Below, one piece after another: positions 39,127 to 43,457 of a stretch of 54,065 nt of DNA. Below the pieces are notes generated by a model, which was not told the DNA's origin, did not search any database, and was given only the letters and a program-made list of their open reading frames with translations. The stretch comes from an uncultured Ruminococcus sp. (lineage in GTDB: Bacteria; Bacillota; Clostridia; Oscillospirales; Acutalibacteraceae), in the NCBI GenBank assembly GCA_902765855.1, contig CACXBF010000014.1:1-54065 (forward strand), in the 5' to 3' direction. The position numbers and the translations under genes were made by a program. The stretch's first letter is position 1. Every line of letters starts with the position of its first letter.

Positions 39127-40185
39127 CTAAATAATGAATGAATCCTCATTAATAGCCTCATTATCGAGTATGTATACCGAATTGCCCTTTGTAACGAATA
39201 TCTTATATACAAACACATCGACTTTTTCGCCTACTGTTACCTCTGCTTCGTTAAGCGTTCTTTTGGCAGTAAGCTTTGTACCGTTTACAGCTATTGTAAG
39301 CTCTGTATTATCGCCTCTGAAAGCTACTCTCTCAACTACTCCCTCAGCCGCAGAACTCTTATATTTTTGGTTTTCGTTCTTTTTAGTAACATCTAAAAAT
39401 TCAGGTCTGATTATAGCCTTATCTGCACCGTCAATTTCCTTAAATGTACTGAATTTGCTGTAATCATCAACAAACGAAGCTTGTCCAAAAAATGATGCTG
39501 TAAAAGCTGTCTGTGGCTTTTGATATATTTCTATCGGAGAACCTTTTTGCTCGATTTTACCATGATTAGTTATGATAATCTCATCAGCAACCTCTATTGC
39601 CTCGTCTTGGTCGTGAGTTACGAATATGCTTGTAACGCCAAGCTTTTCTATCATTTCTTTCAACCAACTTCTTAGTTCTTGTCTGACCTTTGCATCAATA
39701 GCCGCAAAAGGTTCATCAAGAAGTAAAAGTTGTGGATTCGGTGCTAAAGCTCTTGCAAAAGCTACTCTCTGTCTTTGACCACCGGAAAGCTGGCTCGGAT
39801 ACCTCTTGCCTAAGCCCTCAAGACCGATAAGCTTTATAAGTTCGTTTACTCTTTCTTTTATGTATTTTTTATCAGCTTTTTGAACTTTAAGTCCGAAAGC
39901 GATATTATCATAAACTGTCATATAGCGAAAAAGCGCGTAATTTTGAAAGACAAAACCTATCCCACGCTTACTTGCAGGAATATTATTGACAACCTTACCG
40001 TCAATGATTATTTCTCCACTATCAGGATTTTCAAGACCTGCAATCATTCTTAATATAGTTGTCTTTCCGCTGCCGCTCGGACCTAAAAGACCTATTAACT
40101 TTCCTTTTTCAATTCCGAAATTAACATTATCAGACGCCTTAAAATCGCCGAAGGTTTTATTTATATTTTTCAGTTCAACATACAT
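39127..40185 (-). CDS. cysA: Sulfate/thiosulfate ABC transporter ATP-binding protein
   Basis: The 352-residue ATPase has Walker A GPSGSGKTT, the signature LSGGQRQRVAFARALAP, Walker B LLLLDEPFAAID, and the His loop FVTHDQDEA. A C-terminal TOBE-like domain follows (about 240-340). CysA energises sulfate import. The ATG follows the cysW stop directly. It is the last gene of the sbp-cysT-cysW-cysA operon. Confidence 0.9.
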   Translation of the reverse strand: MYVELKNINKTFGDFKASDNVNFGIEKGKLIGLLGPSGSGKTTILRMIAGLENPDSGEIIIDGKVVNNIPASKRGIGFVFQNYALFRYMTVYDNIAFGLKVQKADKKYIKERVNELIKLIGLEGLGKRYPSQLSGGQRQRVAFARALAPNPQLLLLDEPFAAIDAKVRQELRSWLKEMIEKLGVTSIFVTHDQDEAIEVADEIIITNHGKIEQKGSPIEIYQKPQTAFTASFFGQASFVDDYSKFSTFKEIDGADKAIIRPEFLDVTKKNENQKYKSSAAEGVVERVAFRGDNTELTIAVNGTKLTAKRTLNEAEVTVGEKVDVFVYKIFVTKGNSVYILDNEAINEDSFII

Positions 40186-41007
40186 TTATATATCCTTCTT
40201 TCCTTTATATTCAACCACACTTCTTATTATCAATATAGCAATCGCCATAATGACAAGGATTGAGGATACTGCAAAAGCAGGAACATACTGAAATTCATTA
40301 AAGAGAATTTCCACATGAAGTGGAAGTGTATTTGTTTTTCCTCTTAGATGACCAGATAATACAGAAACCGCTCCGAATTCTCCCATAGCTCTTGCGGCAC
40401 ACAAAATAATACCATAAAGGAAAGCCCATTTTATATGTGGAAAAGTTATTCTGCGGAAAATTGTAAAACCATTTGCACCCATAAGTGCCGCAGCTTCTTC
40501 TTCGTCTGTTCCTTGAGCCTCAAGAACAGGTATAAGTTCTCTTGATATAAACGGAAATGTAACAAAAACTGTTGCAAGAACTACACCGGGAACAGCATAA
40601 ACTATGCTTACATCAGCTTGTTGTAAAAGTGGATAAAGTATGCTCTGTCTGCCAAATGTAAGTATAAAAATCAAACCAGCGATAACAGGAGATACTGTAA
40701 CCGGCAAATCTATAAGAGTGGTAAGAACTTTTTTGCCCTTAAATCTAAATTTTGTTATAGCCCAAGCCGCAAATACTCCGAATATTGTATTTACAGCTAC
40801 TGCGATAAGAGTTGCTTCAAGAGTAAGGATAGTTGCTTTTACGGTATATTCATCTGTAATGGCTTTAACATAAACCTCCCAACCTTGTTTAAAAGCCTCT
40901 GAAAAAACTGTTATAAGGGGCAATATAAGCATTACAAAAAGAAATAATATACTTATTCCGATAAGTACACCCTTGACTATTTTCGAGCCCAATTTATTTT
41001 CGTGCAT
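40186..41007 (-). CDS. cysW: Sulfate ABC transporter permease CysW
   Basis: The 273-residue inner-membrane protein has six predicted spans and the permease EAA loop around ISRELIPVLEAQGTDEEEAA, ALMGANGFTIF. CysW-type motifs include ARAMGEFGAVSVLSGHLRGK and TNTLPLHVEILFNE. It pairs with CysT as the transmembrane channel for sulfate. It is 4 bases after cysT. Confidence 0.92.
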   Translation of the reverse strand: MHENKLGSKIVKGVLIGISILFLFVMLILPLITVFSEAFKQGWEVYVKAITDEYTVKATILTLEATLIAVAVNTIFGVFAAWAITKFRFKGKKVLTTLIDLPVTVSPVIAGLIFILTFGRQSILYPLLQQADVSIVYAVPGVVLATVFVTFPFISRELIPVLEAQGTDEEEAAALMGANGFTIFRRITFPHIKWAFLYGIILCAARAMGEFGAVSVLSGHLRGKTNTLPLHVEILFNEFQYVPAFAVSSILVIMAIAILIIRSVVEYKGKKDI

Positions 41008-41011
41008 TATA

Positions 41012-41842
41012 TTAACCCCCTTTCAGAATCTTTGTATTTCTTGCCTGAATAAGATTTATTACAAATAACAGCAAGAATGATACTGCAAGCATTACAAGTG
41101 CTATTGCTGTTGCACTTTTATAGTCGAACTCCTGAAGTTCTGACATTATTATAAGCGGTGTAATTTCTGTTTCATAAGGCTTGTTTCCTGCTATAAAAAC
41201 TACACTGCCATATTCGCCAAGGCATCTGCCGAAAGCAAGTCCAAAACCTGTAAAAACTGCTGGTCTTATTTCAGGAAAGATTATTTTCCAAAATATTCTT
41301 GTTCTGCTCGCACCAAGCACTCCTGCGGCTTCTTCGTATGATGAATCAAGCTTTTCAAGTATCGGCTGAACTGAACGAACTACAAAAGGTATACCTATGA
41401 AAATAAGAGCAATCGTAATGCCAACCTGTGTATAAGCAATTTTAATTCCGAACTTATCGAAAAAGCTTCCTATCAAGCCATTATCTGTTGTAAGCGATGT
41501 AAGAGCCATACCGGCAACCGCTGTCGGAAGTGCAAAAGGAAGTTCTATCATACCGTCTATAATTTTCTTTCCCGGAAACTGATACCTTACAAGTACCCAC
41601 GCTATAATAACTCCCATAACAGCGTTTATAAGAGAGGCTATAAAAGCTGTTATAAAGCTTACTTTAAAGCTTGCAAGAACACGCTCACGAGTTATAGTCT
41701 GAATAAAATCGCTAAAATCCATTTGAGCTGTATATATTACGAGTGACGCAAGCGGTATCAAAACCACAAGACTTAGTATAGAAAGCGTTACGCCCATAGA
41801 CAATCCAAACAATGGGATTACTCTTTTTTTCGCTTTTTTCAT
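41012..41842 (-). CDS. cysT: Sulfate ABC transporter permease CysT
   Basis: The 276-residue inner-membrane protein has six spans and the EAA loop VRSVQPILEKLDSSYEEAAG. The CysT signature includes LPFALPTAVAGMAL and GRCLGEYGSVVFIAGN. It is the partner of CysW. It follows sbp by 9 bases. Confidence 0.92.
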   Translation of the reverse strand: MKKAKKRVIPLFGLSMGVTLSILSLVVLIPLASLVIYTAQMDFSDFIQTITRERVLASFKVSFITAFIASLINAVMGVIIAWVLVRYQFPGKKIIDGMIELPFALPTAVAGMALTSLTTDNGLIGSFFDKFGIKIAYTQVGITIALIFIGIPFVVRSVQPILEKLDSSYEEAAGVLGASRTRIFWKIIFPEIRPAVFTGFGLAFGRCLGEYGSVVFIAGNKPYETEITPLIIMSELQEFDYKSATAIALVMLAVSFLLLFVINLIQARNTKILKGG

Positions 41843-41851
41843 TATTACACC

Positions 41852-42880
41852 TTATTTTTCATAAATTTGGTCGAAAACTCCGCCGTCTGCAAAGTGTTTT
41901 TCCTGAACCTTATCCCAACCACCGAAATCTTTAATAGTAACAAGATTAAGATTGAGGTCGAAAACATCTGAATATTGCTTTAAGATTTTTTCATTCGATG
42001 GACGGTAATAATTTTCTGCGGCAATCTTCTGTGCTTCGTCCGAATAGAGATAACTGAGATATTCAGTAGCGACCTCTCTTGTTCCTCGCTTATCAACAAC
42101 TTCATCAACAACTGCAACTGACGGCTGTGCAAGAATACTTACGCTTGGTGTAACTATTTCATAATCATCAGGATAATCTCTTTTTGAAAGGAACGCTTCA
42201 TTCTCCCAAGCGATAAGAACATCTCCCTGACCATTTTCTACAAAGGTTGTTGTAGCACCTCTTGCACCTGAATCAAGCACAAGAACATTTTTATATAGCT
42301 TTTTGATGAAGTCCTTAATCTTTGTTTCATCACCGTTATAAGCCTTATCAGCATAAGCCCAGGCTGCAAGATAATTCCATCTTGCACCACCTGATGTCTT
42401 CGGATTTGGTGTAATAACTCCAACGCCGTCTTTTACCAGGTCGCTCCAGTCTTTGATGTTCTTTGGATTACCCTTTCTGACAAGGAAAACTATTGTTGAA
42501 GTATATGGTGAACTATCGTTATCAAAATTATCTACCCAACCATCTTTAATCAAGCCGGCGTTTTGAATAGCCTTGACATCATATTCAAGTGCAAGTGTTA
42601 CAACATCTGCCTCAAGTCCGTTTGCAACCTGTAACGCTTGCTTGCCCGAACCACCATGTGATTGAGTAACCTCAACATTTTGTCCCTTTTTTTCTTTCCA
42701 ATGCTTTGCAAAAATTTCGTTATAAGCTTGATAAAGCTCTCTTGTCGGGTCATATGAAACATTTGTAATTGTTACCTTTCCCGAATTTTCTGATTCTGAT
42801 GAAGAACTTGAACCGCAGCCTGAAAAAGCTGTTATAGTCAATGTTGCTGCCAATATTATACTTAAAACTCTTTTTTTCAT
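41852..42880 (-). CDS. sbp: Sulfate-binding lipoprotein
   Basis: The 342-residue extracellular solute-binding protein has a lipoprotein signal ending FSGC21 and a Ser-rich linker. Family blocks are present: [38 protein letters not shown] and [16 protein letters not shown]. It delivers sulfate to CysTW. It is first in the operon behind a long leader with two Cys-codon ORFs and an attenuator. Confidence 0.93.
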
Positions 42881-42904
42881 TTTAAATCTCTTCTTTCTAA
42901 AATT

Positions 42905-43000
42905 TCATTTATTCAAAGTGCTTATATTGAGTATAAATTGACAACATCGACTATCTCTTAATTCAAAATTTCTTATAGGTCTTATAAATATCTTCTTCAT
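42905..43000 (-). CDS. Leader ORF 2 of the sulfate operon, with a Cys-Cys pair
   Basis: The 31-codon frame starts behind CAGGAGG (7-base spacing), a better ribosome site than that of sbp. It begins MKKIFIRPIRNFELRDSR and continues with two adjacent Cys codons (19-20). It stops 24 bases before the sbp start. A short Arg-rich peptide with a Cys pair upstream of sulfur genes suggests sensing of charged tRNA-Cys, here perhaps at the level of sbp translation. Confidence 0.55.
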   Translation of the reverse strand: MKKIFIRPIRNFELRDSRCCQFILNISTLNK

Positions 43001-43066
43001 CTCATAACCTCCTGAAATTTAAAGTTTATACCAACAGAGGAATTACTCTGTCAACACATAAAATAA

Positions 43067-43091
43067 CCGAGAAAGCACCATGCTCCCTCGG
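43067..43091 (-). terminator. Attenuator hairpin in the sbp leader
   Basis: CCGAGGGAGCA pairs with TGCTTTCTCGG (11 bp, two wobbles) around a 3-base loop, then TTATTTTATG. A competing pairing exists: codons 16-18 of leader ORF 1 (ATGTTCCCT, 43133-43125) are complementary over 9 bp to AGGGAGCAT (43088-43080) in the 5' arm and loop. Confidence 0.6.
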
Positions 43092-43109
43092 CTGATTGTT
43101 ATAAAACAA

Positions 43110-43178
43110 TCAACACTGCCTCATAGGGAACATATCACTAAGCATAACCTTATGGCACATACAATTTATAATTTTCAT
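43110..43178 (-). CDS. Leader peptide ORF 1 of the sulfate operon, Cys/Met-rich
   Basis: The 22-codon frame starts behind AAAGGGG (8-base spacing), about 80 bases after a consensus promoter. It has Cys at codons 6, 8 and 22 and Met at 1, 7, 12, 16 and 19 (it begins MKIINCMCHKVMLSDM). The last Cys codon directly precedes the stop, where a small hairpin starts (TGATTGTT/AACAATCA, 43093-43112). The terminator follows within 20 bases. This is the layout of an amino-acid attenuator. Confidence 0.65.
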   Translation of the reverse strand: MKIINCMCHKVMLSDMFPMRQC

Positions 43179-43266
43179 TTTATATTCCCCTTTCGATAGT
43201 GAATTTTATTGTAAGAAAGTTCTTAAAATATAAAGCATATAATTTCAATAGGTTTTGTATGCGTTA

Positions 43267-43295
43267 ATAATAACACTCTAAGCTAAATTTGTCAA
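43267..43295 (-). promoter_or_regulatory. Promoter of the sulfate transporter operon
   Basis: Minus-strand TTGACA (43290-43295) and TATTAT (43267-43272) are 17 bases apart. The predicted leader is about 380 bases long. Confidence 0.75.
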
Positions 43296-43403
43296 TGCAA
43301 TTTTTGCTATTTTTTTGAAATTCAGAAATTTGCTAAAGATTAACCAATTATAAAATTGAATCATATGATTTTTAGGCATATTTTCACAATATTAAACAAA
43401 AAA

Positions 43404-43435
43404 ATAGACAGTACCATAAAAACAGTACTGTCTAT
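43404..43435 (-). terminator. Terminator of the arginine cluster
   Basis: The 11-bp perfect stem ATAGACAGTAC / GTACTGTCTAT is followed on the minus strand by TTTTTTGTTT, 23 bases past the argF stop. Confidence 0.85.
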
Positions 43436-43457
43436 CAAAATATTTTCAAATAAATTT

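Follow-up and report, generated by a model that had tools for sequence, protein, structure and literature searches.

The locus considered here raises the question of how the expression of a clostridial sulfate transporter might be adjusted to the supply of cysteine. It is located in a stretch of 54,065 nucleotides (the window), which is contig C14 of the 2.39 Mb genome of an uncultured Ruminococcus sp. The minus-strand operon starts with sbp (41852..42880), encoding the binding protein of a sulfate ABC transporter (NF008022, 5.2e-144; TIGR00971, 2.7e-132), followed by two permease genes and one ATPase gene of the same transporter (39127..41842, minus strand; BPD_transp_1, BPD_transp_1, ABC_tran plus TOBE_2), which, by their order, we take to be cysT, cysW and cysA. 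A preliminary description of the sbp leader had reported a promoter, a short cysteine-containing reading frame and a terminator-like hairpin, which were proposed to act as a trp-type switch. The sequence observation is real, and the leader additionally contains a second frame (uORF2), a second promoter-like sequence (P2) and a hairpin (H1) that the description had omitted. The order of elements is P1, a degenerate CCTA dyad, uORF1, the stop-codon hairpin H1, the terminator-like hairpin, P2, uORF2 and sbp. We give about even chances to the reading that this is a compound cysteine-responsive leader, in which a young trp-like attenuator would stand before an older CGA-Cys leader peptide.

Promoter P1 (43267..43295, minus strand) reads TTGACA-17-TATTAT with a TG before the second hexamer and reaches a consensus score of 11/12, in line with the promoter claimed before. 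It is the best of nine promoter-like sites found in a scan of 2.5 kb; since 7.4 such sites are expected from shuffled sequences, most of these matches carry little meaning. A further terminator-like hairpin is located upstream of P1, after the arg gene (43403-43436, minus strand). Between P1 and uORF1 lies AACCTATTGAAATTATATG (43236..43254, minus strand), a candidate operator read by eye as a degenerate copy of a CCTAc..gTAGG dyad; this dyad, which we presumptively label 'CymR-like', sits between the promoter and a short cysteine-containing frame (Cys frame) in many relatives, again as judged by eye. The possible second promoter P2 (43025..43054, minus strand; TTGACA-18-TATAAA) was likewise read by eye and is not listed by the scan, whose rule requires a final T in the second hexamer. 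It overlaps the inverted repeat ACAGAG/CTCTGT and is positioned between the terminator-like hairpin and uORF2, so that transcription from P2 may bypass the hairpin.

The first frame, uORF1 (MKIINCMCHKVMLSDMFPMRQC; 43110..43178, minus strand), consists of 22 codons with Cys at positions 6, 8 and 22 and five Met, and a Shine-Dalgarno-like AAAGGGG is found 8 nt before its ATG, as had been described. At the Cys rate of coding sequences in the window, the chance of at least three Cys in 21 codons is p ~0.004; it rises to p 0.024 at the base composition of the leader, and the Cys count of uORF1 alone is therefore weak evidence. The same leader was found in one further genome, G001, which has a 95% identical sbp and shares an identical leader sequence with Pseudoruminococcus massiliensis (L010). 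Comparison with G001 revealed three substitutions in the 69 nt of uORF1, namely two amino-acid changes and a change of TGA to TAA, and third positions are changed at 0/23 sites in uORF1 versus 64/343 in sbp. Because the two species differ by two amino-acid changes without any silent change, the coding status of uORF1 stays putative. Neither uORF1 and uORF2 nor the frames of three relatives matched any Pfam or NCBIfam family. Cys22 adjoins the stop codon, and a ribosome stalled there would sit where the terminator forms, a position that runs against the classical attenuation scheme.

Folding places the 8-bp hairpin H1 (43093..43112, minus strand) at the end of uORF1, with the stop codon at its beginning. 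It is followed by the terminator-like hairpin (43065..43093, minus strand), which has 11 to 13 pairs under different rules, a predicted energy of -17.9 kcal/mol and the U-rich tail ATTTTATG, and which thus agrees with the hairpin of the preliminary description; a strict rule yields 10 terminator-like entries (9 places) on both strands of the window, this one among them. According to sequence and fold, the putative antiterminator is built from ATGTTCCCT (43125..43133, minus strand), which corresponds to codons 16-18 of uORF1, and AGGGAGCAT (43080..43088, minus strand) in the 5' arm and loop of the terminator. Their duplex comprises 9 bp including one G-U pair, as reported earlier, and is equalled in 22 of 2000 shuffles of the uORF1 frame. 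The region of H1 and the terminator hairpin folds with -25.4 kcal/mol compared to -9.0 (sd 2.5) for shuffled sequences (z -6.5), and the antiterminator form with -21.8 kcal/mol compared to -9.8 (sd 2.2; z -5.4); none of 200 shuffles folded as well as the hairpin pair or the antiterminator form.

Attenuators of the trp and his type combine a leader peptide, a terminator and a competing antiterminator. An intrinsic terminator downstream of the frame is recognizable in the sbp leader by sequence and fold, and a mutually exclusive antiterminator formed by codons past the control codons is recognizable by fold. The sbp leader is unlike these attenuators in having one Cys beside the stop codon and a second Cys frame downstream, and in being known from two genomes only. 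When the RNA ends at the terminator loop and a ribosome occupies codon 6 or 8, the antiterminator fold is predicted (-22.7 or -21.8 kcal/mol) with H1 nested within it; with a ribosome at the uORF1 stop, the antiterminator form is lost and the terminator alone folds, as had been anticipated. In the complete RNA at equilibrium, however, the terminator is favoured even if the ribosome is stalled at Cys6 or Cys8 (pair probability 0.925-0.999 in the two species). With this preference present in every ribosome state at equilibrium, only a kinetic switch would work, which the folding results would allow without proving it. A ribosome short of cysteinyl-tRNA would pause at Cys6 or Cys8, whereupon codons 16-18 would pair with the 5' arm of the terminator in the emerging RNA and transcription would go on; with ample cysteine, the ribosome would reach the stop codon, mask codons 17-18 and open H1, and the terminator would form. 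The proposed trp-type switch thus holds in that two exclusive folds exist, and is called into question by the equilibrium preference, the misplaced Cys22 and the possible bypass from P2. Its function is plausible.

Comparison with related genomes, which had been suggested as a check, gives a divided picture. G001 keeps every Cys codon of uORF1 and both pairings; its stop-codon change is matched across H1 (G-C to A-U, a compensatory change), a G-U pair of the terminator has become A-U, and the one remaining change of the hairpin region, the fourth, falls in the loop. The covariation support therefore amounts to one double change in two genomes; taken together, the compensatory change in H1, the G-U to A-U change and the unchanged third positions favour a constraint at the RNA level. 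On the other hand, a search of 200 family genomes with a 160-nt query for uORF1 plus terminator gave matches in 31, which cover the full length only in our genome and G001; the other matches listed span 19-38 bases. Most of the other 198 of the 200 family genomes probably lack such an sbp, as only 8 of 60 relatives gave a match at all. The third genus member examined, G002 (L003), lacks the module and has a different single frame. The preliminary description had named homologous leaders without the two pairings as evidence against its model, and this is the pattern found: of the 35 sbp leaders with a Cys frame, 33 lack the module, including a terminator-like hairpin located between promoter and frame, and only those of our genome and G001 have it, with the location relative to the promoter assessed by eye. 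The trp-like attenuator thus looks like a lineage-specific addition.

Transcripts that read through the terminator would next meet uORF2 (MKKIFIRPIRNFELRDSRCCQFILNISTLNK; 42905..43000, minus strand), which has a perfect AGGAGG 7 nt before its ATG, ends 24 nt before sbp and contains the recurrent codon motif CGA-TGT-TGT (Arg18-Cys19-Cys20; 42941..42949, minus strand). This frame would belong to an older kind of leader peptide with Arg(CGA)-Cys, found before sbp, and in some cases before cysK, in Oscillospirales and their relatives. For comparison, 86 sbp leaders were collected (46 from 51 contig-search loci; our own, L002 and L003; 11 from 394 genomes of the order; 26 of 27 from 391 genomes of the class), of which 81 remained after removal of 5 duplicates. 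Weak sbp matches (L004-L009) and loci without a start or upstream DNA (L034, L054, L056, L059, L060, L098) were left out, and two doubtful rows were retained (L057, with an uncertain start, and L024, with a Cys distant from the stop). An automatic rule requiring a frame led by a Shine-Dalgarno (SD) sequence with Arg-Cys, Arg-x-Cys or Cys-Cys close to its end selected 28 of the 81 leaders, compared to a mean of 2.5 (maximum 6 in 60 rounds) for shuffled leaders and 0/81 for the antisense strand. By hand, a Cys frame was recognized in 35 of the 81 distinct leaders, including the window and L024, and not in the other 46; some of the sbp and cysK rows share ancestry, and the counts are therefore not independent events. 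The share differs between sources (8/12 in the order sample with our genome included, 2/26 in the class sample and 27/46 in the contig-search set, before duplicate removal).

The frames fall into types such as RANFRFGRC, NWRNGRMC..GGISYC, GG..RC and LSSLRMRCC, and the closest of these to uORF2 of the window (..DSRCCQ) appears to be the RANFRFGRC type. In two groups, pN is well below pS (pS/pN of 0.53/0.18 for the 10 leaders and 12 codons of group A, and 0.48/0.17 for 6 of the 7 leaders and 36 codons of group B, with L097 omitted for its length), and these frames are therefore under coding selection. The exact peptide pattern of group A was not found in the 394 order genomes; the genomes of this group evidently lie outside that sample. 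On these comparisons, it is the CGA-Cys leader peptide, and not the uORF1 module, that is more widely shared; frames of the uORF2 kind are also better support than uORF1 for cysteine as the signal.

Codon choice in front of Cys is strongly biased. When all SD-led frames are taken without selection by hand, 27 of 81 sbp leaders have Arg directly before Cys, at 29 places in total, and CGA is used at 19 of these; the corresponding numbers for cysK leaders are 16 places in 16 of 110, with CGA at 13. As a background, the sbp genes of the 35 loci use CGA for 11 of 319 Arg codons and the genes of the window for 26 of 514. The sequence CGA-TGT-TG occurs in 12 of 110 cysK leaders, our own included; the three Arg-Cys cases without CGA use CGT and have longer frames, and 94 of the 110 leaders have no Arg-Cys frame. 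In these 12 leaders, the codon after CGA-TGT begins with TG, being the TGA stop in seven and the TGC Cys codon in five. The cysK leader of our genome (L099, contig C18) encodes MNKMLYIDFRCCRI with CGA-TGT-TGC; the frame follows promoter-like and dyad-like sequence, ends 57 nt upstream of cysK and is nearly identical to that of G001 (L256, MLYIDFRCCRV). Under the automatic rule, 10 of 71 cysK leaders were selected versus 2.3 in shuffled sequences (maximum 7) and 3/71 on the antisense strand, a weaker excess than for sbp. In five leaders (L107, L110, L119, L143, L209), the stop codon of the Cys frame ends at a distance of exactly 60 nt from the start of cysK.

A search of 297 genomes for an SD sequence, ATG and CGATGTTGA gave 63 distinct places, 12 of them in frame with an ATG; five of the 12 precede cysK (L107, L110, L119, L209 and, according to its translation, L206), and the places in L207 and L208 fall within longer frames on reading. 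L206 and L209 stem from the motif search only and are outside the 13 of 16 counted above. The pattern read backward gave 9 places in the same 297 genomes, which is not a matched control, as genes begin with SD and ATG. Our own genome contains three places with the pattern, one of which is the cysK leader, versus four with the backward pattern, and the search revealed no further member there. The cysK start of L206 (~447-561) could not be placed in frame, possibly owing to an assembly error or a truncated gene. Both the sbp and the cysK leader carry a frame in our genome and in 3 of 29 genomes (L002, L014, L018), so that the two often do not co-occur; the other cysK copies examined (39 in all, from 28 genomes with a match) have no CGA-TGT-TG frame, and L246 has CGA-TGC-TGA 209 nt upstream.

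The tRNA-Arg(ICG) reads CGA, and CGA-CGA pairs are inhibitory in yeast, according to two reports (PMC3711424, PMC6301793). We consider it possible, with more doubt than confidence, that CGA-UGU acts as a codon-pair sensor of cysteine, in which the rare, inosine-read CGA in the P site would slow the next step and sharpen the response of the Cys codon, and that this sensor is portable before sbp or cysK in Oscillospirales and relatives. A single Cys codon after CGA would thereby become a sharp gauge of cysteinyl-tRNA. Before cysK, the element would typically take the form CGATGTTG, ending in Arg-Cys-stop or Arg-Cys-Cys, and depending on the lineage its partner would be pairing of the ribosome site or a terminator switch, the latter a recent addition in Pseudoruminococcus.

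How the older leader peptides would act was approached by folding the sbp ribosome site. In five of the 35 leaders with a Cys frame (L011, L027, L028, L052, L058), this site is less open than in all 40 shuffles, and the stretch right after the Cys codon pairs with it; in these few relatives, pausing at Cys would place the ribosome over the pairing stretch and thereby uncover the ribosome site, a form of translational attenuation. Rank 4 or better was reached by 9 of 35 leaders (~4 expected), the leaders of group B are on the open side, and the mean openness of the 35 leaders (0.48 versus 0.51 in shuffles) gives no general shift. Sequestration was not established as a general mechanism, as 30 of 35 leaders stay below the bar, the mean is unshifted and the 11 cysK leaders folded gave no clear signal. 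The sbp ribosome site of the window, at rank 16 of 40, is not sequestered, and the pairing after Cys is absent there. The Cys codons themselves can pair with a downstream arm near the sbp ribosome site in L064, L065 and L066 (AUGUUGU/AUGACAU, AUGUCGC/GCGACAU and AUGUUGC/GCAACAU); by eye, these pairings look like covariation, with the anti-ribosome-site stretch inside the frame.

Comparable systems have been found or predicted in other bacteria. Canestrari reportedly described in 2020 mycobacterial polycysteine short ORFs upstream of cysteine-metabolism genes, in which paused ribosomes uncover the next ribosome site. Those frames are leaderless and contain runs of Cys, whereas the clostridial ones are SD-led, and CGA is often followed there by just one or two Cys; in the window, a terminator module is added. 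Cys frames before cysteine-metabolism genes are shared by both (35/81 sbp leaders, our own cysK leader and 12/110 cysK leaders), but the window has no sequestered downstream ribosome site. Cys leader peptides without an obvious terminator were also predicted before cys and cbs genes of Mycobacterium, P. acnes and B. longum (PMC1262725); they resemble the present frames in having Cys codons near the stop and differ in belonging to Actinobacteria and having runs of Cys codons. The uORFC-8-2 motif before cysS of Rhodobacterales, for which ribosome-mediated attenuation was predicted (PMC8632094), likewise includes a uORF with tandem Cys codons, a stem and an intrinsic terminator; it belongs to another phylum and another gene, the part of the report available to us names no CGA motif, and, unlike there, the terminator of the window follows uORF1 and not the CGA-Cys-Cys frame uORF2. 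In C. perfringens, cysK, cysP1 and cysP2 are preceded by a cysteine T-box that leads to premature termination on cysteine supply (PMC2940859). As with the sbp leader, clostridial cysteine genes are concerned, including cysK; in the T-box, uncharged tRNA binds the RNA directly. T-boxes and other known RNAs were rejected for the present leaders, as neither the window nor 20 loci gave an Rfam match; at E up to 1, the region 42800-43450 gave two unrelated Rfam families only, far below their gathering scores. The preliminary description knew of no clostridial case for a sulfate operon, and the papers listed by a literature search, which mostly did not cover subscription papers, also include no clostridial case of a Cys leader peptide upstream of cysK or of sulfate genes. 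Known or predicted examples of Cys leader peptides come from Actinobacteria and Rhodobacterales; what is new here is the setting and the codon twist.

Three other explanations have to be weighed against the compound leader. The hairpin could be a plain terminator at which a short transcript from P1 stops, with sbp transcribed from P2 and any cysteine control exerted by uORF2 alone. The P2-like TTGACAGAGTA..TATAAA does resemble the L058 promoter (TTGACAGAGTA..TATAAT), which directly precedes the Cys frame of that locus, and the 33 leaders mentioned above manage without a terminator between promoter and Cys frame; yet the -10 hexamer of P2 lacks the final T, no CCTA dyad follows P2 whereas one follows P1, and a plain terminator has no need of a 9-bp competing pairing or of conserved Cys codons, so that we regard this explanation as unlikely. 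Alternatively, the small frames might be incidental and control might be exerted solely by a repressor of the Rrf2/CymR type at the CCTA dyad, which is visible in many leaders, and three Rrf2 matches above the cut-off exist in the genome. This appears very unlikely to us, given that sbp Cys frames are far above the shuffled and antisense controls and that CGA is strongly favoured before Cys; moreover, control by a repressor and by a Cys frame can coexist.

The remaining explanation concerns what is sensed. TnaC is a nascent-chain sensor for Trp, and peptides of the uORF2 type could in the same way sense cysteine, or some other sulfur metabolite, through the nascent chain and not through codon starvation. 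Many members have a single Cys before the stop, a body such as RANFRFGRC is conserved and pN is well below pS, all of which would fit; the bodies of the cysK leader peptides, however, differ by genome, yet CGA-TGT-TG(A/C) is found in 12 of 16 Arg-Cys leaders, which points to the codons and not to the peptide, and we consider a nascent-chain sensor quite unlikely. Weighing these explanations, we return to the compound leader, at which translating ribosomes probably sense cysteine; the direction would be the one outlined above.

If this reading is true, clostridia, which are known for cysteine T-boxes, would also control cysteine genes via translating ribosomes. The idea of a codon sensor can be tested by one synonymous change in the CGA-TGT motif. 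The sbp leader further suggests a route by which a leader may gain a transcription attenuator. Since frames as short as these matched no curated family here, control by Cys leader peptides may be under-reported in gut Clostridia.
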